The notes under the pieces: model-generated
Told to the model about the DNA's origin: nothing
The model's input: only the letters and a program-made list of their open reading frames with translations
Database searches by the model: none
Made by a program: the position numbers and the translations under genes
DNA from: Ruminococcus sp.
GTDB lineage: Bacteria > Bacillota > Clostridia > Oscillospirales > Ruminococcaceae
DNA: 36,275 bases
Direction of reading: 5' to 3'
Assembly (NCBI GenBank): GCA_017470905.1
Contig: JAFUXL010000027.1
Span: 1 to 36,275 of the forward strand
In this document: positions 17,484-35,278 of the stretch, in pieces
How positions within the stretch are numbered: position 1 is the stretch's first letter
Layout: every line of letters begins with the position of its first letter

Positions 17484-17512
17484 GCCATTATTTACCGAAG
17501 GAGGTTATAGTC

Positions 17513-19816: not shown

Positions 19817-19820
19817 GCTT

Positions 19821-19854
19821 AAATGCCGGTACATTCGGGTGTATCGGCATTTTT
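19821..19854 (+). terminator. Terminator of the recJ-rel operon
   Basis: A 13-bp stem AAATGCCGGTACA/TGTATCGGCATTT (one G-U pair) around TTCGGG is followed by a T run. The downstream methyltransferase frame is open through it, which is a reason to choose the later start at 19886. Confidence 0.88.
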
Positions 19855-19885
19855 AAATTATCAGAAATACTATGGAGGCAGTCCG

Positions 19886-21433
19886 ATGAGGAATTATTCA
19901 GACAATAAGAAAAGGGAGCTTTTAATATCGGCTCTTGAAAAATATCTCCCCGAAACGCTGACGGACGGGGAAATAAATTTCGACACTCTGCGTGAAACGC
20001 TCGGTATGTCCGAATATTATGAATTTACATGGGCAGGAAAGCAGAGTGTTCGCAGAGAAGCCGATGCTCCCGTCACGCACAGAGAACTGAAATATATCCC
20101 CGAAAAAAGCTTTAATCCCGATAATACGGAAAATATATATATAGAGGGCGACAACCTCGATGCATTGAAATTACTCCGCAGCGACTACGGCGGAAAAGTA
20201 AAGGTAATATACATCGACCCGCCGTATAACACGGGCAACAAGCTTGTGTATAACGATGATTTTTCCCTGACGAACAGGGAACTTGCCGAAATGTCGGGCA
20301 GGAGAGTAAAAGGCCCCCGTTTTCGTGAGGACTTGAAAAAAGGCTCTCTCATTCACACAAACTGGCTGAATATGATATATCCGAGACTTAAGGTTTCCCG
20401 TGAACTGCTTGCAGACAACGGGATTATATTTATCTCGATAGGCGAAAGGGAGATACATAATCTTCGTCAGATATGCGATGAAATATTCGGTGCGGAAAAT
20501 TATCTCAACCAGCTTATCTGGGTATCCAATATCACGGGACGGCAGATTTCCGGTCACGGTGCTGCGAAAACATATGAATACATACTCGTTTATGCAAAGG
20601 ATATAAGATGTGCGTGCAGCTTTTCCGTTGATATATTTTTCGCAAGGAATAAAATGCCCGATGCATATAAGGGCTTCAAAAAGGATATAAGAGAGGACGA
20701 AAGAGGAAAATTTGCAGTCGGCGATACGCTCTACAACCATAACAGAAAATTCAACGAGGAAACACGTCCAAATCTTGTCTTTTCCATATTTTACAATCCC
20801 CTTACGGGAGAGATACGCACGGGAGAGGTAAACGACGAAATAGAGGGATTTATAAAGCTCCCTCCTCATCCCAACGGCGACGGCATTCATAAATATCACG
20901 CATGGAGGTGGTCAAAAGAAAAAATCGCAAGAGAAAGCTATAACCTCATAGTCCTCCCTGTGAAAAAGGGATATGAAATATATACAAGGGTCAGAAATTT
21001 CAATAAGACCCTGCTGAAAGACCTGATAACCAATATTTCAAACGGTGACAAGGAATTGCAGAAATTATTCGGGGATAAAAAATATTTCGACTATCCGAAA
21101 TCCGTTGACCTTATTAAATTACTGATAGGCTCTGTAAAGGAAAATGATATTGTCCTCGATTTTTTCAGCGGAAGCTCGACAACCGCCCATGCCGTCATGG
21201 AACTTAATGCGGAGGACGGCGGAAAGAGAAAATTCATACTCGTTCAGCTCCCCGAAAATCCCGTCAGCAAAAGCGGCGCAGAAAGAGCAGGATATAAAAA
21301 TATATGCGAAATAGGAGAGGAACGCATACGCAGAGCAGTTGAAAAAATCCGTAAGGATAATCCGAATGCCGTTTTCGATGACGGTTTTAAGGTATTTGAA
21401 GTTGCGGATAAAAATGCAGGAGGAAATATATGA
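19886..21433 (+). CDS. Beta-class adenine-N6 DNA methyltransferase (modification subunit)
   Basis: A 515-aa product; the ATG at 19886 follows TGGAGG, while the longer frame from 19823 begins inside the rel terminator. Motif IV DPPYNTGN (about 110-117) precedes the SAM-binding motif I DFFSGSSTTAHA (about 425-436), the order of beta-class N6-adenine enzymes of the type III Mod/type II families. VQLPENPVSKSGAERAGYKNI near the C-terminus is also typical of Mod-like enzymes. The target recognition part lies between the motifs and is short, so the protein is smaller than most type III Mod subunits (about 600-700 aa). The partner nuclease overlaps by four bases (ATGA) and is small without helicase motifs, so a type II-like system is favoured over type III. 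The recognition sequence cannot be read from the protein. Confidence 0.88.
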   Translation: MRNYSDNKKRELLISALEKYLPETLTDGEINFDTLRETLGMSEYYEFTWAGKQSVRREADAPVTHRELKYIPEKSFNPDNTENIYIEGDNLDALKLLRSDYGGKVKVIYIDPPYNTGNKLVYNDDFSLTNRELAEMSGRRVKGPRFREDLKKGSLIHTNWLNMIYPRLKVSRELLADNGIIFISIGEREIHNLRQICDEIFGAENYLNQLIWVSNITGRQISGHGAAKTYEYILVYAKDIRCACSFSVDIFFARNKMPDAYKGFKKDIREDERGKFAVGDTLYNHNRKFNEETRPNLVFSIFYNPLTGEIRTGEVNDEIEGFIKLPPHPNGDGIHKYHAWRWSKEKIARESYNLIVLPVKKGYEIYTRVRNFNKTLLKDLITNISNGDKELQKLFGDKKYFDYPKSVDLIKLLIGSVKENDIVLDFFSGSSTTAHAVMELNAEDGGKRKFILVQLPENPVSKSGAERAGYKNICEIGEERIRRAVEKIRKDNPNAVFDDGFKVFEVADKNAGGNI

Positions 21434-22487: not shown

Positions 22488-23630
22488 ATGAAACATATAA
22501 AGCCAATACTTCTTTTTCTCGGAATGATGCTCGCATTTTATTCCTGTTCCGATACTGATGAAAATATCTCACAGCCCGAAACCATAGTGCAGAACGAAGA
22601 AATGGCAAGGGCAGGAAATTCCGGGGATATTATTCACCGGACAACCGCAGCGGAAACCACTGTCACAACCACAACAATTACTTCAACAACCACAGTGGAA
22701 ACCACCGTTACCACCGAAATAACCACCTCTTCACAGACCGAAACGGAAACCACGTCCACCTCCGAGACAAGCACCACAACAGCCGAAACCACCGAAACCA
22801 CCTCTTCATCGGAGACTTCAACGACAACGGAAACGACAACCTCATCGGAAACCACCACCACCACAGCCATGCCTGCGGTAACGGTCAAAAATCTCAATGT
22901 CTCGACCATTTCCGTTTCCTGTCTTAAGGTAACATGGGACGAGGAAGAGGACAGGGAATACAATGTCTTTGTCGATACAGATGCGGAATATGCGGAGAAT
23001 ATGCATTTAGTCTATAAGGACAATACACGCCTTTACATCACGGGACTGAGAGAAAATTCCTATTACGATATAACTGTCATACCTGTCGCAAATCAGGGCG
23101 AAACGGCAGTTTCTTCAACGGTTGAGGGGCATACCGAACAGGTTGAAGTCGTCTATGATTTCGATGAGGACGAAGAGGCTCACGAACAATATGACGATGG
23201 CAACAACACCGATTTCTTTGCAGGTGAAAGCTCCCTCGGACTTACCGCAGACCCGTCAAGAAGTGCAATTGCAGGCGCAATAAACGACCCTATAACCGAT
23301 ACGGGAATATGCCGAGACGAATACGGCGACTACTGCTGTGCAATGGGTACATATTTCGGATACTGCTGGGACAGATTTCTCGTTACCTTTGAGAACGGTC
23401 AGCAGATAACGGTCAAGATATGCGACTCAAAGGGCGACAGGTGGTATCATGAGTTTGGCGGATACGAAAACAACCACAATATTATAGAATTTATCTGGTA
23501 CGGCGCAGCTCCGCCAGCAGGTGTTGCTTTTACGGGAACATGGAGCAGCTATATATGGAACGGTCTTGACTTCACGCACATAGAGTCTATCCAGAAGATA
23601 AACTACCCCGAAAACACCGTGGAATACTGA
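22488..23630 (+). CDS. Secreted Thr-rich lipoprotein with a fibronectin type III domain
   Basis: A 380-aa exported protein; GAAAGGA lies before the ATG. Residues 1-20 form a signal sequence ending at Cys20 (AFYSC), a loose lipobox that suggests lipid anchoring. Residues about 52-128 are almost entirely Thr, Ser and Glu (many TTT and ETT units), a flexible and probably glycosylated spacer. Residues about 131-217 form an FN3-like domain (SVSCLKVTWDEE, LYITGLRENSYYDITVIPV). After an acidic linker, the C-terminal 120 residues make a separate domain with several Cys and Trp (CCAMGTYFGYCW, TVKICDSKGDRW), which I do not recognise; it may be a small beta-barrel or binding domain. It stands alone under its own promoter, convergent with the lectin-domain gene. 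A surface adhesion or substrate-binding role is inference. Confidence 0.65.
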   Translation: MKHIKPILLFLGMMLAFYSCSDTDENISQPETIVQNEEMARAGNSGDIIHRTTAAETTVTTTTITSTTTVETTVTTEITTSSQTETETTSTSETSTTTAETTETTSSSETSTTTETTTSSETTTTTAMPAVTVKNLNVSTISVSCLKVTWDEEEDREYNVFVDTDAEYAENMHLVYKDNTRLYITGLRENSYYDITVIPVANQGETAVSSTVEGHTEQVEVVYDFDEDEEAHEQYDDGNNTDFFAGESSLGLTADPSRSAIAGAINDPITDTGICRDEYGDYCCAMGTYFGYCWDRFLVTFENGQQITVKICDSKGDRWYHEFGGYENNHNIIEFIWYGAAPPAGVAFTGTWSSYIWNGLDFTHIESIQKINYPENTVEY

Positions 23631-23631
23631 T

Positions 23632-23666
23632 AAAAAATCAAGCTCTCCCTTTTTCGGGGAGAGCTT
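23632..23666. terminator. Terminator between convergent FN3 lipoprotein and lectin-domain genes
   Basis: A 10-bp stem AAGCTCTCCC/GGGAGAGCTT. On the minus strand it is followed by a T6 tract (from 23632-23637), making a strong terminator for the seven-gene minus operon. On the plus strand the T run is weak. Confidence 0.85.
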
Positions 23667-23669
23667 ATA

Positions 23670-24764
23670 TTATTCGTCAATCTCGCATATATAGCCGAAA
23701 TATTCATGCTTATAGGTACTGAGACTTGTGTTGCTGTTGTCGTTGAAGCTCCAGTTATCCTTTATATTCCAGAGCATAATGTACGGTTCAACGGTAGCCC
23801 TGTCACGGTCATAGCCCGAAGGTTCGCCCTCGTACCATAAACCGTTATCATAGATAAAATCAAGCGACGAGCCGTCCGTCCATGATGCGGTAACAGAGCC
23901 GTCCGACATGGACGTTTTTCCGCCGAGCCAGAGATAGCGCAGATTTAAACCCTGAAGGCTTCTGATAATCTCGTCATATTCCTGTCTGCTCTTGATATAG
24001 GCGAGATGACCGCCCTTTTCCTGACATTCCTGTTCAGCCTGTTCCCACGTGCAGGCACCTATGCATATGATAAATCTTTTATTCTGCACGGGTGGGTCTG
24101 TCGGTGGTTCAGCGACCTCAACGGAGATTTTATCCTCCTCGGTGACAGGTTCTGTTTCGGGGACGGTTTCAGGGATGGTTTCGGGTTCTGTTTCGGGAGC
24201 GGGTTCAGGCTCCTGTTCGGGTTCATCCTCCGGAACATCTTCGGAAATTTCCTCCTGCGGTTCTGTAAGTATATTTTCCTCGTCCTGCGGAGAGGGTGAC
24301 TGTTCACTGCTGTCCGAAAAAACCGAGATACTGCTGTTGCGTGAAAACATTGTTGTGTCGGGATTTTTAGTGACAAGAAAATAATATGCCGCTGCGGAGC
24401 ATACTATAACAAATGCAAACGCACCGAGTGAAGCCGTCACGATTTTTGAAAGCGAATGCTTCGGACCTTGCGTATCCGTAAGATTTGTACCGTATGTAAT
24501 CCTTGTGTCGTCAGTATTTTTATTATTATTGTCCTGCGACGGCGGAGCAGGCGGTTCGCCGTTATTAACGGGGGGAGTCTGATGATTTGCCGGCGGAGCA
24601 GGAGGAACAATACTTATAGAGTCCTCATCGGGTTTTTCGACTGCATTTGACTGCAAGTCGGTATTTTTTTTCGCAGACGGACTTCCTATCAGTGTCATTC
24701 CGCAGTTAAGGCAGAAAAATTTGCTGTCATCAAATTCACTTCCGCAGTTCGGACATTTTTTCAT
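23670..24764 (-). CDS. Zinc-ribbon, transmembrane, C-type-lectin-domain protein
   Basis: A 364-aa protein; AGAGGTGAT precedes the ATG. Residues 1-22 are a zinc ribbon with two CxxC pairs (C4, C7, C18, C21). Residues 48-80 are rich in Pro and Asn. One membrane span lies at about 107-131. Residues 150-225 are a Glu/Pro/Thr spacer of PETEPE-type repeats. Residues about 237-362 are a C-type-lectin-like domain: WEQAEQECQEKGGHLAYI, then YLWLGG, W-TDG, a GEPSG loop, an aromatic-rich NWSFND strand and a final YIC. The ribbon should be cytoplasmic and the lectin domain outside. Bacterial C-type lectin folds bind proteins or glycans. It is the last gene of the operon, 32 bases after the helical membrane protein, so it may be the surface-exposed part of that system. 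Confidence 0.78.
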   Translation of the reverse strand: MKKCPNCGSEFDDSKFFCLNCGMTLIGSPSAKKNTDLQSNAVEKPDEDSISIVPPAPPANHQTPPVNNGEPPAPPSQDNNNKNTDDTRITYGTNLTDTQGPKHSLSKIVTASLGAFAFVIVCSAAAYYFLVTKNPDTTMFSRNSSISVFSDSSEQSPSPQDEENILTEPQEEISEDVPEDEPEQEPEPAPETEPETIPETVPETEPVTEEDKISVEVAEPPTDPPVQNKRFIICIGACTWEQAEQECQEKGGHLAYIKSRQEYDEIIRSLQGLNLRYLWLGGKTSMSDGSVTASWTDGSSLDFIYDNGLWYEGEPSGYDRDRATVEPYIMLWNIKDNWSFNDNSNTSLSTYKHEYFGYICEIDE

Positions 24765-24796
24765 ATAATCACCTCTTGCTAAAAATCGGGAGTTTT

Positions 24797-26503
24797 TCAG
24801 ATTTTTCCAAATTCCGCCTTAATATCGTCAAAGCGGCTGTCGTTTTCGGAAAATTCCCTTTCATAATTTTCAAAGTCTCCGAGTATCTGTGCGAAAGCGT
24901 CCTTTGTATTCTGCGCCTCGATTTCGCAGTCCTTTATTATTTTTTCCTTGAGCCGACTGGAGAGAATTATTTTCATGACACCGCCGAAAATACCTCCTGC
25001 CGCAAGCACAAACATCACGGGTGTCCTCAGCATTACCGCTCCTATTACCGCAAGGAGGGCAATTCCGAACATAACGAATGCAGAAAGCAGCTTGACGTTT
25101 GAAAGCAGGGTCTGTTCCTTTTGTTTGTAATGGGCTTCTATTTTTGAGATTTCCTGCGAGGGATTTGAAAAATCCGCATTGGATTCGTATTCGCCGATTT
25201 TTATATTAAAATTTTTACGGCAGCGTGAGCGGTATTCCTTAACCTTTTTTTCTATTGCGGAGAAGTGAAAATTTTTCGAGAGTGTAAACATATTTTTTCT
25301 CTCTGCCGCACCGGTATCGTCTGTCGGGTGGTATATCCAGTCAGTCATTTCGTTTATAATATCGAATTTGTTGCGGTTATGTTCGAGATAATCGTTATAA
25401 GCCCTTTCCGCCGACTGCGTATCGCCCTGATGGGAGATTATATATTCGTTTTTCAGAATTTCGTTTCTGACATTTTTCTCCGAGAGATTTGCACGCTTTA
25501 CAACATCGTCCATGAATGAATTTAAATAATTTCTTTTCTCCTCATCAGAAACATTTTTAATTCTTGCCAGCATTTCGAGGTAATTCAGATTAGTCCTTGC
25601 CGCATTGAGCTGTCTGAGAAGAAAATCCTTTTCCGTGCAGTATTTTGAAAGCACGGGATAATTCATAGAACCGCTGACACGGTACATATTCAGGCAAGCC
25701 ATGATTTTTGCGACAACCATTTCTTCATTGAAGCCTGCCGATGCAATACATTCATTAACAAGCTGTCTGATGTAATTTTCAGCCGCATCCGTTACGGCAA
25801 CATCGGGCTTTTCGCCAAGAGTTCCGGCCGCAATCGAAAAGAAAAGCAGCATATCCTTCTGGTCTTCGCCCGTGTGTTCGCACTGTATGTAGGATTCAAA
25901 CCATTTCAGTGCAGGTTCGCTCCTGCCCAGACGCAGATAAAACGCAAAGAGAAATATACTCGTGCTTTTGAGGTCAAGCTCGCAGGCTCTCTCAACGGCT
26001 TTCTGCGCTGTTGTCCTGTCGTCATTTTTCCATGACATAATCGCAAGGAGTACACAGGTAAGCCAGTAATCGGGAAGCTGGAGGTGCTGTACCTCCACGG
26101 CTTTCATGAGTGTCCTGTCGCTTACAAAGCTGACCTCTATGTTATTCAGCATAGCCTCCACAATTTTGCGGACGGCACGGTAATTCGCAAATTCGTAATA
26201 TATTTTATTCTGACATTCACGGATTTTTTTATTTGCAAGCTCTATTCTCTTGTATCTTTCATACATTTTTTCGACTTCGCCCTCAAGCTCATAGGCTCTT
26301 ACGGCGATTGAATGCGAGTCATCCACACGGTTTCCGCCGTCGTGCAGGGTAGTATTTATTCTGTTCGAGAGCCTGTTCCACCTGCCCGATGCATTGTCAA
26401 CACCGACAGACAGTTCGTTCAGCTCACTCCTGAGTTCGTAATTTATTCTCTCCTGTTCGGAGATTTTGCTTCTTATAAGACTGATGTCTCCGTCAATACT
26501 CAA
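24797..26503 (-). CDS. Helical-repeat membrane protein, paralogue 3 of the AAA+ operon
   Basis: A 568-aa protein read from a TTG start that overlaps the ATPase stop by four bases (TTGA), with GGAGGGTGA upstream. The N-terminal 105 residues are coiled-coil-like helices. Residues about 110-260 hold TPR-like pairs with the signature PDYWLTCVLLAIMSWKND and FAFYLRLGRSEPALKWFE, shared with the two paralogues at 28805 and 30460. A HQGDTQSAERAYNDY segment recurs in all three. Two membrane spans lie at about 472-514, close together, followed by a 54-residue charged helical tail. Both ends should be cytoplasmic. I do not recognise a named family. The triplication beside a single AAA+ ATPase suggests subunits of one hetero-oligomeric membrane complex. 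Confidence 0.7.
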   Translation of the reverse strand: MSIDGDISLIRSKISEQERINYELRSELNELSVGVDNASGRWNRLSNRINTTLHDGGNRVDDSHSIAVRAYELEGEVEKMYERYKRIELANKKIRECQNKIYYEFANYRAVRKIVEAMLNNIEVSFVSDRTLMKAVEVQHLQLPDYWLTCVLLAIMSWKNDDRTTAQKAVERACELDLKSTSIFLFAFYLRLGRSEPALKWFESYIQCEHTGEDQKDMLLFFSIAAGTLGEKPDVAVTDAAENYIRQLVNECIASAGFNEEMVVAKIMACLNMYRVSGSMNYPVLSKYCTEKDFLLRQLNAARTNLNYLEMLARIKNVSDEEKRNYLNSFMDDVVKRANLSEKNVRNEILKNEYIISHQGDTQSAERAYNDYLEHNRNKFDIINEMTDWIYHPTDDTGAAERKNMFTLSKNFHFSAIEKKVKEYRSRCRKNFNIKIGEYESNADFSNPSQEISKIEAHYKQKEQTLLSNVKLLSAFVMFGIALLAVIGAVMLRTPVMFVLAAGGIFGGVMKIILSSRLKEKIIKDCEIEAQNTKDAFAQILGDFENYEREFSENDSRFDDIKAEFGKI

Positions 26504-28011
26504 TTTTCATCACCCTCCGTTCTCTGCGCACTGACAGCACGTTTTCTGCCCCAGTCACGGATTATTTTTATCTTTTCAAAATTGCTTTTTGATACGGGTA
26601 CAACGGAAGAGAAGCATTCACGGATGGTTTTCATCGAAACTGCCTCCTTTCCGTAGACCATAAGGCGGTATGCCGCCTCCTTTACGGCATATTCGATTTC
26701 TGCAAAGGAAAAATCCTTTGAAAGCGTGAGCAGCTCCTCCATATGCTGCGGACTGAGCTTTATATGCAGACAGCGTGAGGTATACTGTTCAATTGCCGTG
26801 CGGCGTTCCCCGGCGGCCGGGAGGTCAACGAAAAATGTCTCCGAAAATCTTCCCTTTCTGAAAAGCTCCGCAGGCAGACGGGTAATATCGTTTGCCGTTG
26901 CCGTCATGAAAACACGGCTTTTCGATTCCTGTAGCCAGAATAGGAATTTTCCAAGAATGCGCTGACTTGTATCATTCGAGCCGTCGGCGGCGGAAAGGGA
27001 TTTTTCAATTTCGTCTATCCAGAGTATGCACGGGGATACATTGTCGATAAACTGCAAAGCCTCTTCCATTTTTCTTTCGCTTTCGCCCATCCATTTGTCG
27101 TAAACTGCGCCTATGTCGAAGCGGAAAAGCGGCAGCTCCCATTCCTTTGCAATCATCTTTGCGGAAAATGATTTTCCGCAGCCCGGCACACCCACGAGGA
27201 GTATGCCCTTCGGAGGAGTGAGTCCGTAGAGATTTAATTCTTCATCGGAGGCGAAAAAGATTTTCTTTTTCTCTTCAAGCCATGATTTAAGATTTTCCAG
27301 CCCCGATATTACGAGCCTGTCGTCAACCTCTATTTCGCTCACTGCCGAAACGGGCGCATACAGACGGCTTTTCTGACTTGTGAGCCTGTGTATATTTTTT
27401 ACATAAAGCCCCTCGGAGGTAACTATCTCGTTTGAGAGGATATTGTCTATTTGAATTTCGGTAAATCCACGCAGGAGATTTGCCGCCCTCATCATATCTG
27501 CTTTCTGCCAGTCTATATTAAAGCGAGCCTGATACTGCTTCACGAAATTCTGTATCTGTTCGTATCTTTCATTGAGGTGCGGCAGGTCAAGCTTTACTAT
27601 CATTCCGAACTGCGCGATACGGCTGAAAACCCTGTCGTCCGTTATGAGTATCAGTGTCGAGCTTGATTCCTTTGCAAGATAGAGGACATTTATAAGGTCA
27701 CGGGAATAAATCGTATCATCGCTTATTCTGCGCACATCTCCGTAGACAAAGGTTGTCCTCTGCTTTTTTCTGAACATATCGGCGATGAATTGCAGGGGGT
27801 CGTTCTTCACGTCCATGCTCTGCTGAGGCTTTCCGAGAACAGTTACCTGCTTTGCGTCTGTATAGTAATACATTTCTATCTGTCTTTCGGAGGCAATGGA
27901 GGTCAGAAGTCTTTCGCAGCGTTCACGTTCGGAAGAACTGATTATAATAAGAGGTGTCCTTGCAATGATGTAATTTTCCGTTTCGGCTTTTGTTGTAAGG
28001 TAATTGCTCAT
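26500..28011 (-). CDS. AAA+ ATPase of the Ycf46 type
   Basis: A 503-aa soluble protein; AAAGGAGG precedes the ATG, which overlaps the stop of the previous gene (ATGA). Residues 1-200 match the N-terminal domain of Ycf46-like ATPases (ARTPLIIISSSERERCERLL, then LILITDD). The AAA+ module runs from about 235: Walker A GVPGCGKS (274-281), a pore-loop-like KWMGESE (306-312), Walker B ILWIDE (329-334), sensor 1 TATAND (370-375) and arginine finger RKGRF (385-389), with the helical lid to about 470. All catalytic residues are present, so it should hydrolyse ATP as a hexamer that remodels a protein. There is no membrane span or protease domain. Its place between two small proteins and a membrane paralogue points to those as its substrates or anchors. 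Confidence 0.85.
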   Translation of the reverse strand: MSNYLTTKAETENYIIARTPLIIISSSERERCERLLTSIASERQIEMYYYTDAKQVTVLGKPQQSMDVKNDPLQFIADMFRKKQRTTFVYGDVRRISDDTIYSRDLINVLYLAKESSSTLILITDDRVFSRIAQFGMIVKLDLPHLNERYEQIQNFVKQYQARFNIDWQKADMMRAANLLRGFTEIQIDNILSNEIVTSEGLYVKNIHRLTSQKSRLYAPVSAVSEIEVDDRLVISGLENLKSWLEEKKKIFFASDEELNLYGLTPPKGILLVGVPGCGKSFSAKMIAKEWELPLFRFDIGAVYDKWMGESERKMEEALQFIDNVSPCILWIDEIEKSLSAADGSNDTSQRILGKFLFWLQESKSRVFMTATANDITRLPAELFRKGRFSETFFVDLPAAGERRTAIEQYTSRCLHIKLSPQHMEELLTLSKDFSFAEIEYAVKEAAYRLMVYGKEAVSMKTIRECFSSVVPVSKSNFEKIKIIRDWGRKRAVSAQRTEGDEN

Positions 28012-28529
28012 AAATCCTCCTTTTGACTGTCGTTTTCGGGGAAAAGACGTATCCGTTTTATCTGATAGAGTACGTCCTCAAGCTGAGTGTCATGCTGCTG
28101 CGCACAAGAATAATAAAGTGTGCGATACGCATTGAGCCAGAATTTTTCCGCCTCGCTGCGGACGGAGGATTCAAGCTCTCTGCGGAATTTTTCGCTCATG
28201 AATTTCAGGTTTCTGAAGAAAAGGCAGAAAGACAATTTCTGCGCAAAATGTACATACGGAAGATACAGGCTTTCCGTTTCGCCGAATATTGCATACATAT
28301 TCCATTCACGCTGAAATTCGTGTATGTACTGCGAAAGCATGGCATTTATCGTCTTGACAAGCTCTGTTTCGAGATATTGCAGCGAATGCTCGCTGTCACG
28401 GCAGATACCGCCGCACAGAAGCTTATACTCATCATGATTTACGGAACGTTTTTTAAGTATTTCAAAGCATTCAAGCCACTGTGCGTAATGCGTGGGGCTT
28501 GATGTGATTTCCTTTTCTGACAGCATCAT
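28008..28529 (-). CDS. Small helical protein of the AAA+ operon, unknown function
   Basis: A 173-aa protein with no domain I recognise. It is predicted to be almost all alpha-helical, with aromatic-rich amphipathic helices (LPYVHFAQKLSFCLFFRN, FWLNAYRTLYYSCAQQ) and no signal or clear membrane span. Its ATG overlaps the stop of the 83-aa gene (ATGA) and its own stop overlaps the ATPase start, with no ribosome site of its own, so it depends on translational coupling. This tight linkage suggests fixed stoichiometry with the ATPase, for example an adaptor or regulatory subunit. Confidence 0.65.
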   Translation of the reverse strand: MMLSEKEITSSPTHYAQWLECFEILKKRSVNHDEYKLLCGGICRDSEHSLQYLETELVKTINAMLSQYIHEFQREWNMYAIFGETESLYLPYVHFAQKLSFCLFFRNLKFMSEKFRRELESSVRSEAEKFWLNAYRTLYYSCAQQHDTQLEDVLYQIKRIRLFPENDSQKEDL

Positions 28530-28777
28530 TTCAGGAATGTAAAGGGCGGTTCAAGGTTCCAGTCGGGAAGCTTTTTATTCATCTCTCTGAGACGTTCATC
28601 TGTAAGAGCAGGAGCCTGCGTTTCCTCGGAAATTTTTTCCTCGCTGAAACGCTCCTTCATCATATCTTCAAATTCGAGGTCGTCATCAGATTTTTTTGAT
28701 ATGGAGACAGTGTTTTTATTTTCTTTATTTTCGGTTTCTTCGTCCGGTTTCTTTTTAAGGCTTACGATATTTGACAT
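28526..28777 (-). CDS. Small acidic disordered protein with conserved-looking C-terminal peptide
   Basis: An 83-aa protein; AAAGGAG lies before the ATG. Residues 1-60 are rich in Lys, Glu, Asp and Ser and look disordered. The end LPDWNLEPPFTFLK is Pro- and aromatic-rich and looks like a short linear motif that docks on a partner. No known domain is visible. Its position between the membrane paralogues and the coupled 173-aa/ATPase pair suggests an adaptor or substrate tag for the AAA+ protein. That role is inference from layout alone. Confidence 0.6.
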   Translation of the reverse strand: MSNIVSLKKKPDEETENKENKNTVSISKKSDDDLEFEDMMKERFSEEKISEETQAPALTDERLREMNKKLPDWNLEPPFTFLK

Positions 28778-28804
28778 AAGAATACTCCTTTATTCAATAT
28801 TTTA

Positions 28805-30439
28805 TCAAAGATAAGCAAGCATCGAGAGAATATTCTCCTTTTTGGCAACATTCTCCGAAAAATATCTCTGAAATTCGGTTATCTGCGACATTGTGCCTTC
28901 AAGTGCATTGATTGCTTTCTGAACACGTTCGGCAAATTTCTTTTTTCCGCTGACAATACGCAGGAACAGTGCAGCCGCAGCTCCTGCCATGAGAACAAGT
29001 CCCGCAAAAATTGCGCCCGTAAAGCCGTATTTGACTATATGCACTACAGATACAGCCGTTACCGCAAGACCGAGGAAAAATACTATCATAAGGACGATAT
29101 TCAGTCCGTTGACATAAACCATCCTGAATTCGTTGTTTTTGAAGAAATTATTCAGGCTTGTGCGCTGTTCTTCGAGGTCGTGACCGTTGCTGACGCTCTG
29201 CCATTCGTCAATTGAAAGGCTGTATTGCAGGGGACAGCGTTCCCTGACCCTTGCCGTCCACATTTCGAGCGCAGACGAAAACCACTGCTTTGTACTCTGT
29301 ATTCCGAATTTTCTGACCTGAACATCGGTTTCTTCGTCATATATCGCCCAGTTGACCATCTGCTTTCCGAAATTGTAATTCTGATTGCGCAGCTTCTGTA
29401 TCTCGTCATACTGCTCCTCGGCAACCTGCTTGTCGCCGTCATTGCTGATAACAAGCCGGAAATATTCCTGCTCCGCCTTTATTTCCATTTCCTCCTCATC
29501 GTAATTTGTTATGAGATTTGTGAGGATAGCATCTATACGGCTCTTGTAGTCGCCGCTCGTCTGCATGGTTCCGTCAACATTTATGCTTTCTATGAGGCTT
29601 ATCAGCTTATCGTATTTTGATGCGTCTGCACAGGAATTTTTTACTTCCTCCGAATTTGCGCAGAAGGATGAAATCATATCATAGCTGAAATTCACGTTCC
29701 TGTTGAATTTTTCAAAATAGCTGACATAATCCTGAACAAGCCCCTCGCATATTTCGGGCTTTTCGGAAATTATTCTTATCCAGCCGTTTATTATCTCTGT
29801 GACTTCATGTTCAAGCTGCTTGTCCGTGCCGAAAATTCCGCTTCTGAAAGCCTGTATCATGATTGCCGTTTCGTGCTGTAATTTCAGGGGGTCGAGCGAT
29901 TTGCAGTAGAGCGAAAACCATCTTCTTGCCGTTTCGTTTCTCCCGAAACGCAGATTGAGCAGACAGAAAAACAGAGAGGATTTCACGGGGTCTCTGCGCA
30001 CGCATTCCGAGAGCGCATTCTGTGCAACATCGGGGTAATTATTGACCCATGCAGTAACCGCCATAAGCGCATATGAGAGCCAGTATCTTGAGCTGGTTAT
30101 CCAAAGCTCTTCGGACAGCTCCTCTATGGTGCTGTTGCGCACGAGATTTATATCAAAATCCCTCACGACACCGATAATCGTTTTTCGCACGGCATCGTAA
30201 TTTCCGAACCTTTCCTTGATTAACTGGTCAAGTCTTATTATATTTTCGTGTGCTATCTGTTTTTCTTCGCCCCTCATTATATTTGTGCTGAATTCACTTA
30301 TTTTATCGTGGATATTCTGCACAACGGAGTGAATTTTCTTTGTCGAGCTGTCAACATTTCTGACGTGTACATCGACATTGGATTCAAAATTCTGGACGGA
30401 GTTGTTAAGCTGATTGAGTGCGCTGTTTACGTTTGACAT
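28805..30439 (-). CDS. Helical-repeat membrane protein, paralogue 2 of the AAA+ operon
   Basis: A 544-aa protein; GAGGAG lies before the ATG. The N-terminal 60 residues (NSALNQLNNSVQNFESNVDV) are coiled-coil-like. The helical repeat region shows the shared signature YWLSYALMAVTAWVNN and FFCLLNLRFGRNETARRWF, which matches the other paralogues closely. An NDGDKQVAEEQYDEI segment follows further on. Two membrane spans lie at about 441-498, then a 46-residue amphipathic cytoplasmic tail. It shares this plan with the 585-aa and 568-aa products but is well diverged, so the duplications are old and the copies have probably specialised. It ends 28 bases before the 83-aa gene. Confidence 0.7.
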   Translation of the reverse strand: MSNVNSALNQLNNSVQNFESNVDVHVRNVDSSTKKIHSVVQNIHDKISEFSTNIMRGEEKQIAHENIIRLDQLIKERFGNYDAVRKTIIGVVRDFDINLVRNSTIEELSEELWITSSRYWLSYALMAVTAWVNNYPDVAQNALSECVRRDPVKSSLFFCLLNLRFGRNETARRWFSLYCKSLDPLKLQHETAIMIQAFRSGIFGTDKQLEHEVTEIINGWIRIISEKPEICEGLVQDYVSYFEKFNRNVNFSYDMISSFCANSEEVKNSCADASKYDKLISLIESINVDGTMQTSGDYKSRIDAILTNLITNYDEEEMEIKAEQEYFRLVISNDGDKQVAEEQYDEIQKLRNQNYNFGKQMVNWAIYDEETDVQVRKFGIQSTKQWFSSALEMWTARVRERCPLQYSLSIDEWQSVSNGHDLEEQRTSLNNFFKNNEFRMVYVNGLNIVLMIVFFLGLAVTAVSVVHIVKYGFTGAIFAGLVLMAGAAAALFLRIVSGKKKFAERVQKAINALEGTMSQITEFQRYFSENVAKKENILSMLAYL

Positions 30440-30459
30440 ATATTCTCCTCGCTTTCATA

Positions 30460-32217
30460 TCAGAATTTGCCGATAATATACGAAATATCATCTGTATGTT
30501 CGTAATTTGCCTGTATTTTTCTGCGCCAGTCAGCCATTTCGTCAAGAACGCTGCGGAATTTTACTATTGCAATTCTGCACTGCTCCTTGTGTCTGTTTGT
30601 AAGCTCCGTCCACTGTTTCCATGTAAGGAAACCGCCGATAATTCCTGCCGCTGCGCCGAGAGTGAGAAATACCGCAAAGTTGTCGGATTTTACGGAGAGG
30701 GCGGCAATGCCGAGCAGAAGAATTGCACCTGCACATATGAAAAGGAAAATCTTAATGATGCTGTCTCCGAGAATGAAATGTACTCTGTTTTTCTCGTAAT
30801 GCTGTTCGATTTTGTTTTCGCATATTTCCCTTTCGTTTTCGCTGCATTCAAGGCGCAGCGGCTGCATATTGCGGCTTATCATGACATTTATGGGGTAGCG
30901 TTCCTTCATCATATTACGGCATTCTTCAAAATATCTCTGAATACCACGGTCTATCTGTTCTTTCAGCTTTCCGACCGAGAATTTTTTTACTGTTATGTCA
31001 ACGGCTTTGTAATCATCGGAAAATGCCCAGTAAATCATCAAATCGCCGAATGTGTGTGTTTCGTACATATGACCGTAAACGGACTGAAATTTTTCCTCCG
31101 CAGCCTTTGTATCGCCCTTTGCCGCCATTATTTCCTCATTGCGGCGAATTTCCTTTATTATTTTAAATTCTTCCGTGTCGTAGGCATCTATCAGGTTATA
31201 AAGTACGTTTTCGATATGTTCTTTCATATCCCCGGCATGAGTTTCCTGCATTTCATATACATCGCTGTAATATTTTATCATAAGCTGTACCTTTTCGGAC
31301 TGACTGAGGAGATACTTTACATTGTCGTATTCGGGACAGAAGCTCCTGAAATCGGGGTATTCCGTATCTGTCGAATGGATATATGTCTTTACATATTCAT
31401 ACGACCTGTCGGCAGCCTTTTTTGAAAAATCCACGCTTGTCGCCTTTGTCTGTTCAAGCATGGTGTTGAAATATTTTTCGGCTGTTTTCTGTATTTCGGC
31501 ATCGGTATTCAGTCCGCCCGTGAGGTATAAATTCAGTATATGCTGCCATTCTTCGGGTATTTTATTTACATCCGTCTCGCCGAGGAATGTCAGGAACCAG
31601 CTTCTTGCCGTTTCGGTACGCTGAAAGCGAAGATTTACGAGCATGAAGAACACGCACGACCTGTACTTGTCCATTTTGAGGGATTTGTTGAGCGCACGGT
31701 ATGCAGCTTCCTTTTCGTTGCTTGCCCAGAGCATTACTGCGGATATGGCATATGCAAGCCAGTAATCTGTATTTGCAAGGTAGGCTTTTTCAACTTTTTT
31801 GCGCATAGTCTCGCTCGAAATGATATGCGAGTCGATGCCTATGACATATCCGAGGGCAATTCGGCGCAGTTCGTTGTAAAACTTGAATTTTGTGCTGTAT
31901 ATATCATTGTACTGCGTAAGATTTTTCGATGCGGTGGAGAGATTTTTGAACAGGAAATAATTTTCGGTTATATCAATTATCTTCTGATAAAGTTCATCTA
32001 CAATTCCGCCCTCTTCTTCGAGATTGTCCGCAAGATATTTAACCTTATGCGTTACGGGTTCGTCTGTCTTTGAGATATTTTCCGCAACTATGTAGCAGTT
32101 CTGCACGGCAAGCTCCACTTCAGCCTCCAGCCTTACATTTTCCTCCACGAGGTAGTTGTATTCATTCACAAGGCGGTTGTACTCGGCGACCTTCGCCTGA
32201 TATTCTTCATCTGTCAT
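30460..32217 (-). CDS. Helical-repeat membrane protein, paralogue 1, first gene of the AAA+ operon
   Basis: A 585-aa product. The ATG at 32217 follows AAGGAGGAA; the frame is open 33 codons further, but across the promoter. The first 45 residues are a coiled coil (EYQAKVAEYNRLVNEYNYL). The shared repeat signature is YWLAYAISAVMLWASN and FFMLVNLRFQRTETARSWF. AKGDTKAAEEKFQSVY matches the GDT/GDK segments of the paralogues. Two membrane spans lie at about 487-536, then a charged 49-residue tail. As first gene under the strong promoter with a Spo0A-like box it may set the level of the complex. Function is unknown; a scaffold role is inferred from coiled coil, TPR-like repeats and membrane hairpin. 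Confidence 0.7.
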   Translation of the reverse strand: MTDEEYQAKVAEYNRLVNEYNYLVEENVRLEAEVELAVQNCYIVAENISKTDEPVTHKVKYLADNLEEEGGIVDELYQKIIDITENYFLFKNLSTASKNLTQYNDIYSTKFKFYNELRRIALGYVIGIDSHIISSETMRKKVEKAYLANTDYWLAYAISAVMLWASNEKEAAYRALNKSLKMDKYRSCVFFMLVNLRFQRTETARSWFLTFLGETDVNKIPEEWQHILNLYLTGGLNTDAEIQKTAEKYFNTMLEQTKATSVDFSKKAADRSYEYVKTYIHSTDTEYPDFRSFCPEYDNVKYLLSQSEKVQLMIKYYSDVYEMQETHAGDMKEHIENVLYNLIDAYDTEEFKIIKEIRRNEEIMAAKGDTKAAEEKFQSVYGHMYETHTFGDLMIYWAFSDDYKAVDITVKKFSVGKLKEQIDRGIQRYFEECRNMMKERYPINVMISRNMQPLRLECSENEREICENKIEQHYEKNRVHFILGDSIIKIFLFICAGAILLLGIAALSVKSDNFAVFLTLGAAAGIIGGFLTWKQWTELTNRHKEQCRIAIVKFRSVLDEMADWRRKIQANYEHTDDISYIIGKF

Positions 32218-32287
32218 AGCGTTCCTCCTTATTAATCCGTATTTTCTGTGTGGTTTACAGAATAAGCCTTTTTTACGATACCAGAAT

Positions 32288-32329
32288 ATTATATCATATG
32301 TATCAGAAAAAGTCAAGTTGTTTTCGACA
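32288..32329 (-). promoter_or_regulatory. Promoter and Spo0A-box-like site of the AAA+ operon
   Basis: On the minus strand TTGACT (32311-32316), a 17-base spacer and TATAAT (32288-32293). Six bases upstream of the -35 lies TGTCGAA (32323-32329), the consensus Spo0A-box heptamer, at about -42 to -48, a place from which Spo0A activates or represses sigma-A promoters. The same heptamer occurs several times inside genes here, so the box alone is weak evidence. Confidence 0.6.
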
Positions 32330-32432
32330 AGTTTCTGATTAAATCCATGCTTTTATTGTGGAATTTACACATAAAAACACCATGATTTTCCGCCGCAGCA
32401 TGGAGAACAGGGCTTTTACGGCGACCGTCCGC

Positions 32433-32462
32433 AAAAAAACAGGCAGATAAACATCTGCCTGT
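32433..32462 (-). terminator. Terminator of the metal-binding lipoprotein gene
   Basis: A 10-bp perfect stem ACAGGCAGAT/ATCTGCCTGT with a 4-base loop, followed on the minus strand by a T6 run. Confidence 0.92.
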
Positions 32463-32479
32463 CATGGTTTTGCGAAGTC

Positions 32480-33478
32480 TTATTTCATTATATCTTTAAG
32501 AACGTCATAATTTCTGCGCATGAGTGAAAGATAGGTTGCGCCGTTGTCTATATCACTTTTTGAAACGGACTGAATGGAGTTTAATTCGGCAATTTTAACG
32601 TACTTACCCGAGGTTCTTATGACAGTATCTGCGATTGATTTGTCCGAATTTTCAAGAGTAAATACAGTATCGCAGTCAAGCTCCTTTATTTTGTCCGCCA
32701 AAAAGGCAATAGTTTCGAAGCTTGCCTCCGTTTCGGCTGAACATCCCACAAATGCGGCATAATAATCAAGACCGTAATCGTCCACAAAGTAGCGGAAAGG
32801 AAATCTGTCTCCGAATATCAGCGTTTTCACGGAGGAGCTGTCAATAAGCTCTCTGAAATCGCCGTCAAGCTCATTGAGCTGCGAAATATAGGTTTCAAGA
32901 TTTGATTTATACTCATCAGAATTTTCGGGGTCGATTGCGGCTATGTTTTTTTCTATTTCGGTGCATAATATCTCTGCGTTTTTCAGCGAAAGCCAGATAT
33001 GCTCGTCATACTCCGTTTCTTCCGTGCCGCCGTCATCTTCTTCATCTTCCTCCTGCATACCCTCTTTAAACTCCTCAACCTTGGCGGCATCACCGAGAAT
33101 ATCCATAAGATTTATAACCATCATATCCTTGTTTGATGCGTCGGAGAGGGTATCCTCGACCCATTCATCGGACTCGCCGCCCACATAGACAAACATATCG
33201 CATGAGGAGATTTTCATTATATCGTCCGCTGTCGGCTGAAAGCTGTGCAGGTCAATGCCTTTATCAAGAAGATATGTTATATCAGCATTTTCCGCCCTGC
33301 CGCCGAGAATTTCCCTTACCCAGTCATATTCGGGGAAAATCGTGCATACTATGCTGAATGATTTTGAGTCTGCGTTTTCCGCCGCAGAAATATCGTTATT
33401 TTCGGTATTTCCGCAGCCTGTCATTCCTGCGGCAATAATAAAGCCGAGTGCCGTAACGCCTAATTTTTTAGAAAACAT
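32480..33478 (-). CDS. Metal-binding lipoprotein of the ZnuA/AdcA family (ABC transporter substrate-binding)
   Basis: A 332-aa product from the ATG at 33478, preceded by GGGGG; the longer frame crosses the promoter. Residues 1-22 are a lipoprotein signal ending MTGC (Cys22). The cluster A-I substrate-binding fold is seen: FSIVCTIFPEYDWVREI, DLHSFQPT (H78), DEHIWLS (H160) and LNSIQSVS. The third metal His of the family (FHDAFGY) is replaced (FGDRFPFRYF), leaving D224 nearby, and the usual His-rich loop is instead an acidic stretch (EEDEEDDGGTEETEYDE, about 143-159). So metal preference or affinity may differ from classical Zn or Mn binders. It is a single-gene unit, with no permease or ATPase beside it, behind a Fur-type box. 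Confidence 0.82.
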   Translation of the reverse strand: MFSKKLGVTALGFIIAAGMTGCGNTENNDISAAENADSKSFSIVCTIFPEYDWVREILGGRAENADITYLLDKGIDLHSFQPTADDIMKISSCDMFVYVGGESDEWVEDTLSDASNKDMMVINLMDILGDAAKVEEFKEGMQEEDEEDDGGTEETEYDEHIWLSLKNAEILCTEIEKNIAAIDPENSDEYKSNLETYISQLNELDGDFRELIDSSSVKTLIFGDRFPFRYFVDDYGLDYYAAFVGCSAETEASFETIAFLADKIKELDCDTVFTLENSDKSIADTVIRTSGKYVKIAELNSIQSVSKSDIDNGATYLSLMRRNYDVLKDIMK

Positions 33479-33512
33479 AAAAGTATACCCCCGTTCTGGA
33501 TTAAATCGAAAA

Positions 33513-33527
33513 TGATAATTATTTTCA
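33513..33527 (-). promoter_or_regulatory. Fur/Zur-family operator-like 7-1-7 box
   Basis: TGATAATTATTTTCA fits the TGATAAT-N-ATTATCA Fur-type 7-1-7 palindrome at all but one base. It lies just downstream of the expected start of transcription, where a bound repressor would block the metal-lipoprotein gene. Which Fur-family member (Fur, Zur, PerR) binds cannot be told. Confidence 0.6.
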
Positions 33528-33535
33528 TATTTGAT

Positions 33536-33564
33536 ATTATACCACATAGTCTTGACTAAGTCAA
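33536..33564 (-). promoter_or_regulatory. Promoter of the metal-binding lipoprotein gene
   Basis: On the minus strand TTGACT (33559-33564), a 17-base spacer and TATAAT (33536-33541). A 13-base palindrome TTGACTAAGTCAA (33552-33564) overlaps the -35 and may be a second operator. Confidence 0.75.
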
Positions 33565-33630
33565 TGACATTATATGAAAAATTCCGTTTCTAATCATTTC
33601 AAATGCCGTATTTGCGAGCTTATCAGAACT

Positions 33631-33690
33631 TTTTGGTAGATTCATATATTATCGAAATCCGATTTTTATCTACCAGATTTTCTACCAAAA
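33631..33690. repeat. Inverted and direct repeats beside the integrase, candidate attachment region
   Basis: TTTTGGTAGA (33631-33640) and TCTACCAAAA (33681-33690) are a perfect 10-bp inverted repeat. TCTACCA occurs again at 33669-33675, giving a direct repeat 12 bases before the second arm. Such repeats next to the 3' end of a tyrosine integrase gene are typical of integrase core or arm sites, so the element end probably lies here. Confidence 0.45.
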
Positions 33691-33742
33691 TCGCTCTTTT
33701 TTCGTTCTCTTTTTCTCGCTATCCATTTTTCGATATTATATT

Positions 33743-35227
33743 TTATAATCTCGATGTTTCCGATTCACCTGTAGCCGTGGGTGTTTCGCTTTTCTTTTTT
33801 CTACCGCCAGACTTTTTAGGTGCAGGCGTTTCTGTTGTTGTAGACTTATCGCTTGCAGATTTCTTGTCCGAAGTCTTTTTCGCAGACGGCTTTTTGCTTG
33901 CCGTTTTCTTCGTGGACTTCTTCTCAGGTGCAGGCTCGGTATTCTCCGCAGGAGTGTTGCTCTGCTGTTCCGCTTCACCGTCAAGCACCCTTGCGATAGT
34001 TTCCGCAGAAATGACCTTTGCGTTGTACTCCAAGTGACTGTAAAGGTTCGCCGTGATTGAATAGTTACTGTGACCGAGCCACTCCTGAATCGCCTTCATC
34101 GGAACATCGTTTGCAAGCAAAAGACTTGCACATGAATGTCTCAAATCATGGAAACGCAGATGTCTCAAACCGTTCTTTGTGATAACGTAGTGGAAACGGC
34201 TTGTCACATATTCGGGCGAAATCAGCTTGCCATAGTTGTCACGGCAGATAAAACCGTCGAACTCCGTATCATAAGACTTTCCGCACACTTTCCTGAAGTG
34301 AGCTTCAAGCTCTTTCTTTTCAAGGAGCATTTTCTCGATATGCGGTATCAGCGGAAGTGTTCTTCTTGTGGAGTTGGTTTTCAGTCTCGTTTCCACGAAC
34401 AGCTTTCTGTGACCGTTCTCATCGTAGTCGCTGACAACCTTGCGCTGAATGGAAATCGTCTTGTTGACAAAATCCACCGCATCCCATCTCAGACCAAGCA
34501 CCTCACTGCGACGCAGACCGTAGTAGGCGGCAATGTGTACCACCACTTCAAGCCTGTCACCCTTGAACACCTCAAACAGCTGATACAGCTCCTCTTTGTT
34601 GTAAAAAGTCGCTTCATATTTATCCGCTCTCGGCATAACAAGTTTGTCCATCGGGTGGAGCAACAGATACTCCATTTTCACCGCATAGGCAAGTCCCGAA
34701 TGTATCGCAAGATAATACTGTTTCACGGCACTGCCCTTGCAGCCCTCACCGAGCTTGTGATTGAGAAACTCCTGAACGTGATTATGTCTCAGCTCTCCGA
34801 GCGTGATACCCGGATAGTGAACGTCCAGATACTCCACAAAACGCTTGTTGGCACTTTTGTAGGTCTGATAGGTGGTTCTTGCAAGGTTCGGGCGCATTGA
34901 TGCCAGCCATTCGTCCACATACTCTCCCATTGTCATCTTCGATTCGGGAGTTTCAGTCATAACAGCATACGGCTCTCTTACCGCAGAAACAGGTGCGGAC
35001 TGTGACTTCTTGGGATTTTCAAGCTCACCCGTTCTGAACTGCTCATCAAACTCCGCCACAATCTTATCGACCGCTGCATTCAGAGCCTTTTTTGTGCATT
35101 TCTCGGGCAGACCTGTTGTCACCCACTTGCGCTTACGCTTACCCTCGCTGTCCCTGTAGTCAAAAACAACGTACTGTTTTCCGTTCTTCACGGAAGTGAT
35201 ATATTTATAAGGCAGACTTGCTTTCAT
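33743..35227 (-). CDS. Tyrosine recombinase/integrase of an integrative element, Lys-rich tail
   Basis: A 494-aa product if read from the ATG at 35227, 8 bases after AAGGAGG; the ATG at 35233 is only 2 bases from it. The N-terminus (about 1-75) is an AP2-like arm-binding domain (YVVFDYRDSEGKRKRKWVTTGL). About 98-190 is the SAM-like core-binding domain. The catalytic domain (about 205-410) has all residues: R239 (GLRRSEVLGL), K283, H360 and R363 (HDLRHSCASLLL), H386 (LGHSNY) and Tyr396 (NLYSHL). It integrates or excises the element with the small excisionase upstream. An unusual tail of about 75 residues rich in Lys, Ser, Thr and Pro (EKKSTKKTASKKPSAKK), histone-H1-like, follows the catalytic domain and may bind DNA without sequence preference. 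Confidence 0.92.
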   Translation of the reverse strand: MKASLPYKYITSVKNGKQYVVFDYRDSEGKRKRKWVTTGLPEKCTKKALNAAVDKIVAEFDEQFRTGELENPKKSQSAPVSAVREPYAVMTETPESKMTMGEYVDEWLASMRPNLARTTYQTYKSANKRFVEYLDVHYPGITLGELRHNHVQEFLNHKLGEGCKGSAVKQYYLAIHSGLAYAVKMEYLLLHPMDKLVMPRADKYEATFYNKEELYQLFEVFKGDRLEVVVHIAAYYGLRRSEVLGLRWDAVDFVNKTISIQRKVVSDYDENGHRKLFVETRLKTNSTRRTLPLIPHIEKMLLEKKELEAHFRKVCGKSYDTEFDGFICRDNYGKLISPEYVTSRFHYVITKNGLRHLRFHDLRHSCASLLLANDVPMKAIQEWLGHSNYSITANLYSHLEYNAKVISAETIARVLDGEAEQQSNTPAENTEPAPEKKSTKKTASKKPSAKKTSDKKSASDKSTTTETPAPKKSGGRKKKSETPTATGESETSRL

Positions 35228-35278
35228 TATCATTTCCTCCTTGATTGAAAGCGGCAGAAGTCTGCTGTTGACTCTTTA

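Follow-up and report, generated by a model that had tools for sequence, protein, structure and literature searches.

A seven-gene Ruminococcus operon appears to be a three-anchor variant of an unnamed five-gene cassette around a p97-type AAA+ ATPase

What kind of machine is encoded by an operon that combines one AAA+ ATPase with three related membrane proteins, two small proteins and a lectin-bearing membrane protein, and does this gene set occur elsewhere? We investigated these questions with a 36,275-nucleotide stretch of Ruminococcus sp. DNA (GCA_017470905.1, contig JAFUXL010000027.1, positions 1-36,275), referred to at its full length as the window; the genome from which it comes is 74% complete. 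A first-pass annotation of this sequence had proposed a membrane-anchored complex, perhaps serving envelope stress or defense. Comparison across genomes indicates that the operon is a diverged variant of an unnamed bacterial cassette of five genes, A-E, which appears to be built around a protein-unfolding motor (E) and a membrane anchor (B); the window version has three B genes and no A. As to function, we tentatively favor a membrane-anchored unfoldase that would handle or load polymorphic toxins, a reading that we ranked above defense, envelope remodeling and plain quality control.

The operon occupies positions 32217 to 23670 of the minus strand, with the genes in the order B1, B2, C, D, E, B3 and the lectin gene. 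The genes and their flanking signals are listed below; lengths are in amino acids (aa), TM stands for transmembrane and ORF for open reading frame.

30460..32217, minus strand: B1, 585 aa, two close TM spans near the C-terminus and a coiled-coil-like start; 157 bits to the B profile from other loci
28805..30439, minus strand: B2, 544 aa, second paralogue; 296 bits to the B profile from other loci
28526..28777, minus strand: C, 83 aa, C-terminal motif L-P-D-W-N-L-E-P-P; 12.1 bits, E-value 0.14, rank 1 of 9540 ORFs
28008..28529, minus strand: D, 173 aa, family with a conserved P-x-x-Y-A-x-W near the start; 28.9 bits, E-value 5e-7
26500..28011, minus strand: E, 503 aa, p97/Ycf46-like AAA+ ATPase; 495 bits to the profile from other loci
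24797..26503, minus strand: B3, 568 aa, third paralogue, four-base overlap with E; 164 bits to the B profile from other loci
23670..24764, minus strand: lectin protein, 364 aa, with a zinc ribbon (1-24), one TM span (~108) and a C-type lectin-like domain (239-303)
32288..32316, minus strand: promoter-like site TTGACT-17-TATAAT, the second hexamer being preceded by TG; agrees with the consensus at 11 of 12 positions, ~70 bases upstream of B1
32438..32463, minus strand: terminator-like hairpin behind a ZnuA-like gene, upstream border of the unit; 11 pairs, T tail
23639..23667, minus strand: terminator-like hairpin behind the lectin gene; 11 pairs, T tail

The layout given in the first-pass annotation was borne out: all seven ORFs lie on the minus strand, and four-base overlaps join C to D, D to E and E to B3, the remaining three gaps measuring 20, 27 and 32 bases. 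ORFs were called mechanically, with alternative start codons written as M, and the intergenic spacings reported here rest on these mechanical starts. The promoter, which had been called strong, is one of the two best sites (11/12) among the 21 promoter-like sites in 23400-33700, a total that does not exceed that of shuffled sequences (19.0, standard deviation 4.4). Because hairpin terminators precede the promoter and directly trail the lectin gene, the transcription unit is closed at both ends; the seven genes are one real operon. The ZnuA-like gene (32480-33547, minus strand) has its own promoter-like site at 33536-33564, which agrees with the operon site in both hexamers, the length of the spacer and the TG extension.

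The recurrence of this gene set was examined with E as a tblastn query, which matched 125 phage and 1659 plasmid records; 1 of the former and 72 of the latter covered at least 80% of the query. The closest full-length matches (36-38%) were in the satellite phage Javan368, a Comamonas plasmid, two Komagataeibacter plasmid records and a 2.1-Mb Fusobacterium record. In the four of these records that were opened (including one of the two from Komagataeibacter), the same set stood beside E, namely A (~160 aa), B (~570), C (~60-70) and D (~150-190). When the Fusobacterium B was used as the query, these five records were the only ones found (four among 72,556 plasmid records and one among 50,697 phage records), and the other E-like ATPases are therefore without a recognizable B. 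We note that the Fusobacterium vincentii record NZ_CP084075.1 is filed as a plasmid; at 2.1 Mb it is more likely a chromosome.

An alignment of B identified 218 relatives among 84,980 species genomes, and the loci of the best 80 of these 218, ranked by likeness to the Fusobacterium B, were fetched (two of them, L076 and L091, share one contig). A-E were complete in 68 of the 80 loci, and in no locus were the block genes split between strands. Eight of the 12 others end at a contig edge (within 1.1 kb), which leaves four really incomplete loci: L039 and L091 with B only, L058 with B and C, and L076, in which C was unrecognized. Among 86 mapped loci the gene order was BCDEA in 54 and ABCDE in 15, with median spacings of 13 bases for B-C, -4 for C-D and 13 for D-E. 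The block occurs in four phyla (Bacillota, Fusobacteriota, Actinomycetota and Pseudomonadota); in a sample of 398 genomes of the phylum, B was matched in 5, over its full length in 2. The sole other full block in that sample (L135, G338 contig C31, 5.9 kb) looks Comamonas-like by eye and is a possible contaminant. Among viral contigs, the B alignment found one, whose E is identical to that of an Anaerovibrio locus (L072), while neither single window proteins nor the toxin-like protein of locus L045 (described below) retrieved any relative.

None of the families A-D carries a name in the collections searched: B, C and D of the window had no family above the cut-off in Pfam, PADLOC, NCBIfam or PHROGs, and neither did the relatives, A included, in Pfam and PADLOC. 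No account of the block was found among the matches listed in open-licence PMC text, a collection that leaves preprints and subscription journals mostly uncovered, so that a recent account is possible; passages of PMC7159879 likewise held nothing resembling it. The first-pass annotation knew of no described system with this set, and we too found none under a name. The recurrence of the seven families as a block, which it put forward as a check, holds in a narrower form. The block travels with its ATPase across phyla instead of being scattered without it, but the widespread unit is the five genes A-E. Four unnamed protein families that accompany one ATPase in 68 of 80 loci, in four phyla, on plasmids and in a satellite-phage record amount to a sizeable blind spot.

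We then compared the window operon with this cassette. The seed alignments of the first B-E profiles held window rows; control profiles were built from other loci only, although their members had been chosen via the first profiles. With these control profiles, the top ranks among 9540 ORFs (443 from the window and 9097 controls) went to the window B2, B3 and B1 for the B profile and to the window D and E for theirs. The window C came first as well, at a score so weak that its assignment rests mainly on its gene place and its L-P-x-W-x-L-x-P-P end. B, C, D and E thus stand in cassette order on one strand in the window, with C as the weakest link. The C family ends in [L/F]-P-x-W-x-x-x-P, mostly followed by P and an R-R or similar basic end. 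Its members range from 51 to 338 aa among mechanical ORFs, and in many genomes they begin with a zinc ribbon (by eye), which was not seen in the window C. From this pattern, C looks like an adaptor carrying a fixed binding peptide.

B2 is the closest of the three window paralogues to B of other genomes and is matched by B1 (E-value 2.7e-44, 23% identity) and B3 (1.7e-28, 21% identity). A simple hydropathy scan placed two close hydrophobic spans in each: at 487 and 514 in B1, 448 and 475 in B2, and 472 and 496 in B3. The first-pass annotation was thus right about three true paralogues of one plan with two close TM spans each, while the TPR-like region that it assigned to them could not be established: no TPR repeat exceeded the curated cut-off, B3 gave a TPR_14 match of 0.0017 (below cut-off), and 1 of 71 B members had a TPR match at an E-value of 0.01. 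We dropped SLATT, MFS and DUF2207 as identities of B, each being a sub-threshold match in 1 of the 71 members. For B, searches of PDB sequences returned noise of the coiled-coil type, and for A no match was convincing.

No counterpart of A was found among the window ORFs, in the window's own genome (a search run with no positive control) or in the 20-kb stretches around the two other three-B loci, L113 and L114. The order B1-B2-C-D-E-B3 recurs in one genome of the same genus (G574) and one of the same family (G806); it was present in 2 of 100 genus genomes, the window's own included. Full-length matches were found in 2 of 396 family genomes (the window's own and G806), and six further matches were short. 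From these comparisons, the window operon is a diverged variant of the cassette with three B genes and without A. The triplication of B is local to this variant. Behind B3, where the window has its lectin gene, L113 (10409-11740) and L114 (7124-8557) have a gene whose product, by eye, resembles secreted dockerin proteins.

E carries the Walker A motif GVPGCGKS, the Walker B motif LWIDEIEK and a K-W-M pore loop, and matches PF00004 at 1.4e-27. It aligns to the VCP-like structure 5vc7 over all three motifs, with KWMGESE in the window against KWVGESE and the pore-loop tryptophan aligned. By these criteria E is a AAA+ ATPase of the Ycf46/p97 clade, as had been proposed. In a quick tree, whose long branches counsel caution, 75 block ATPases separated with full support from 5 outside Ycf46- and eCIS-type ATPases (eCIS, extracellular contractile injection systems), and the E proteins of the three three-B loci grouped with full support inside those 75. 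The sequence gives no support for a dead second AAA domain in the N-terminal 235 aa of E: a profile search among PDB sequences met no AAA structure, and inspection of this region by eye in 14 sequences showed no Walker A pattern. To our knowledge, the targets of Ycf46-type ATPases are poorly known.

What might such a motor act on? Behind E, 6 of the 80 loci (L018, L026, L036, L037, L043 and L045) encode a long acidic protein with at least two F/Y-D-D-C-type motifs, here called the FDDC-type cargo; it precedes A in five of them, and L043 is cut by the contig end. At least two such motifs occurred in no other of 1470 gene-like ORFs, the FDDC motif and the HNYG motif described below having been spotted by eye and counted afterward. 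The C-terminus of the L045 cargo matches a papain-fold toxin family (PF15644, 4e-15), the gene after the L036 cargo encodes a SUKH-1 immunity protein (PF09346, 2e-9), and the L018, L026 and L037 cargos have an HExxH motif by eye. Directly upstream of B, seven loci carry a pair of genes, c3-c2, in which c3 encodes a zinc ribbon with two or three TM spans and c2 a HerA-type ATPase (PF01935, 1e-9 in L045). These seven are all six cargo loci and L046, which has no cargo. Cargo and pair thus coincide (6 and 1 against 0 and 73; Fisher p 2.3e-8), with motif and test both chosen after the pattern had been seen. Loci with a partial pair were counted as lacking it, namely L030 (c3 only), L053 (c2, where the contig starts and the stretch behind B is cut), L032 (a c2 fragment) and L050 (a c2-like gene behind A); none of the four has FDDC-type cargo. 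In L113, the same-genus three-B locus, a 765-aa repeat protein and then a 161-aa gene, ending 17 bases before B1, precede the operon. The repeat protein has no Pfam match but shares an H-N-Y-G-R-[DE]-D-Y motif with the L045 toxin, and we read its end as papain-like.

Taken together, these data lead us to favor, as the leading though still tentative reading, an unfoldase that is anchored in the membrane and serves to handle or load polymorphic toxins. B would anchor the machine through its two TM spans, with the coiled coil and the helical region of B on the cytosolic side, and E, a p97-type motor with a conserved aromatic pore loop, would dock on B through C and D and thread protein substrates. 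These substrates would at least partly be polymorphic toxins with long acidic N-terminal leaders that bear repeated short motifs. The module may recognize the leader motifs, unfold the toxins or hold them ready and hand them to a membrane exit, which in some relatives would be the HerA-type ATPase encoded just upstream. Zinc-ribbon, one-TM proteins with variable outer domains, such as the lectin domain in the window, could supply outside contact or sensing. More speculatively, A-E may form the core of an undescribed toxin-handling and export machine, in which a p97-type unfoldase reads toxin-leader motifs and feeds HerA in some lineages, the window being a three-anchor, lectin-bearing version; this fuller claim is possible and the less probable of the two. 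If the toxin link is causal, it would point to a new way for Gram-positive bacteria to handle or deliver antibacterial toxins, and to a natural substrate for a Ycf46-type ATPase.

Several observations weigh against a toxin-handling role. FDDC-type cargo was not seen in 74 of the 80 loci, and the surroundings of the block in the satellite-phage record, Paenibacillus and the proteobacterial loci held no cargo, HerA or one-TM zinc-ribbon gene. The toxin link is seen in relatives and not in the window operon. No toxin gene with a variable C-terminus and adjacent immunity gene was recognized next to the latter, and the window's own genome (74% complete, no positive control) had no match to HerA, A or the L113 toxin-like protein. 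Pfam gave no toxin match for the cargos of L018, L026, L036, L037 and L113, and the L043 cargo is truncated, so that the toxin label of the unmatched cargos, which remains putative, rests on layout and on motifs judged by eye. Two further patterns count in favor of the toxin link. On the E tree the toxin loci are scattered and need 7 changes for the 7 of them, as many as shuffled labels (mean 6.8). At least four of these changes are forced by well-supported branches of this quick tree, and the toxin link has thus been gained or lost repeatedly. HerA homologues occur in 7 of the 398 phylum genomes, none of which showed B, and toxin-like and SUKH-like genes were seen by eye beside HerA in at least four of these seven block-free loci (L129, L132, L133 and L134), while none were seen in L128, L130 and L131. 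The four loci, with long neighboring proteins and toxin-like C-termini, are possibly a separate unnamed toxin system, and HerA toxin loci are thus a wider kind that the block occasionally joins. On the opposing side, such loci are found where the block is absent, and L046 combines HerA with no cargo, so neither depends on the other.

The scarcity of cargo is what would be expected if the cassette served membrane protein quality control, as an unfoldase with adaptors and without any conflict role, the toxins being passengers inserted between E and A. Protease genes near the block point the same way: in L030 (6758-10156), a 1132-aa protein that combines AAA_2, AAA and Peptidase M41 domains is encoded directly behind A, and the block has a gene for a zinc-ribbon M48 protease next to it in L052 (by Pfam) and in L038, L051, L061 and L068 (by clustering). 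The distribution of the block, however, is patchy in a way that house-keeping genes are not, and passengers would not be expected to go with HerA as the cargo does (p 2e-8, in the post hoc test above). We consider this explanation improbable, the least probable of those weighed here.

That same patchiness would suit anti-phage or anti-plasmid defense, one of the two roles that the first-pass annotation had envisaged. B would then be a two-TM effector, D, C and A would sense or regulate, and E would remodel the complex so that B opens the membrane in abortive infection. The mobile carriers agree with this, with the block on Comamonas and Komagataeibacter plasmids and in a streptococcal satellite phage record, where it lies at the record end behind an integrase-like fragment (by eye) and perhaps outside the element. 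So does the match of the AAA domain of E to IetA models, although that match covers the AAA domain alone and reaches 63 bits against an NCBIfam cut-off of 510. B1 has a sub-threshold match (0.0011) to the SLATT two-TM effector domain, yet 70 of the 71 B members have none. A-D found no convincing match in PADLOC 2.0.0, the strays being D to PD-T4-6 (0.0014) and A to PglZ (0.00066). We also scanned neighbors for defense genes, using 78 hand-picked genes of 112 inside or next to the block (409 candidates overall) and leaving out cargo, most zinc-ribbon TM genes, c2, c3 and c6 genes, likely artefacts, cut ends, near-duplicates and a few others. Matches included a type IV restriction enzyme (3e-82), PD-T4-6 (4e-36) and AbiD (2e-28), but no defense model was matched by more than one of the 78, a result that stands beside no background set. 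Nor is it a defense trait for an operon to include toxin and immunity genes. The defense proposal thus draws a little support from mobile carriers and isolated defense genes nearby, and we regard it as rather unlikely.

The lectin gene had been proposed as a partner of the machine, and here the comparison was favorable. The lectin protein matches PF00059 at 7.4e-7 (30.3 bits, cut-off 22.6), and its zinc ribbon matches PF13248 at 2e-5 (24.3 bits, below the cut-off of 27). Within 1 kb of the block there are 15 one-TM zinc-ribbon genes, in 13 of the 80 loci and with one on the opposite strand, which corresponds to 10.3 per 100 kb available, compared with ~1.0 at 1-10 kb (9 genes); one further such gene lies inside a block. 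Because these genes are ~10 times denser near the block, the last gene of the window operon fits a surface-protein pattern. The outer ends of the zinc-ribbon proteins in L040, L045, L046 and L058 resemble the window lectin domain by eye, and another outer domain in L045 belongs to an F5/8-type family (PF25302, 4.5e-30). A 380-aa, lipoprotein-like, threonine-rich protein with no Pfam family above cut-off is encoded at 22488-23630 (plus strand) and converges on the lectin gene.

This clustering of zinc-ribbon membrane proteins could also be read as envelope-stress or membrane remodeling machinery like PspA/ESCRT, the other role first envisaged, in which E would take apart a coiled-coil membrane scaffold formed by B and the lectin protein would sense wall damage. 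The genes upstream of B1 in L114, the three-B locus of G806, speak for it: at 15952-19999 they encode an SPFH/Band-7 zinc-ribbon protein (PF13421, 6e-37) and a four-TM protein, a combination reminiscent of the Bacillus subtilis ydjF operon as passages of PMC11237479 describe it, as well as a protein of 664 aa whose start resembles a zinc ribbon. This is a single locus, however, B had no PspA_IM30 or Snf7 match in 71 members at an E-value of 0.01, and the toxin-type genes in related operons would go unexplained. We judge envelope remodeling to be about as doubtful as defense.

Elsewhere in the window, a tyrosine recombinase/integrase (33743-35233, minus strand; PF00589, 2.5e-22) lies on the same strand as the operon and the ZnuA-like gene, upstream of both, and the region may be a mobile insertion. 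At 3072-9739 (plus strand), the gene for a protein of 1872 aa, in which a single weak TPR match was found, overlaps by four bases that for a 350-aa protein with no Pfam match. Rfam and tRNA scans of the window gave no matches.

How does the cassette compare with known systems? Ycf46 and its relatives align with E over the full length at ~31-32% identity, but two cyanobacterial ATPases of this kind have DUF1257 and DUF2997 genes nearby instead of A-D, and on the tree the outside ATPases split from those of the block. IetAS shares an AAA domain of the same broad clade, but E lies far below the equivalog cut-off, and PADLOC did not find the second IetAS protein among the seven operon proteins. 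PspA/ESCRT-like operons also pair a membrane-bound protein with a AAA+ ATPase, and passages of PMC11237479 place PspA beside a two-AAA protein with an inactive first copy; the likeness to the block consists of this pairing and the one locus with an SPFH gene, whereas B matches neither PspA nor Snf7. Type VII secretion has a HerA-superfamily ATPase and toxins in common with part of the loci, but it is c2 that is the DUF87/HerA protein, whereas the block ATPase is a p97-type AAA+ protein; no WXG100 or EsaC genes appeared in the Pfam results of the general scans, which included no search aimed at them. Polymorphic toxin systems resemble some related loci in their long N-terminal region, varying C-terminal part and adjacent immunity gene, and the passages of PMC3482391 on such systems contain no trafficking part like A-E.

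A parallel in function may be the ATPase of eCIS, such as the Photorhabdus system. E matches a protein of T. succinifaciens pTRESU01 over its full length (29.5%), and the gene for that protein sits between baseplate genes; no sheath, tube or baseplate genes of eCIS or type VI secretion were found among the 20 window proteins scanned with Pfam. The Photorhabdus ATPase Pvc15 is described with an N domain and two AAA domains, whereas E has one detectable AAA domain. The job may nevertheless be similar: passages of PMC11495950 report that Pvc15, a AAA+ ATPase, loads effectors via an N-terminal signal. Pvc15 is thus a precedent for a AAA+ protein that loads toxins by their leader peptides, and by analogy it supports a toxin-handling role for the A-E cassette.

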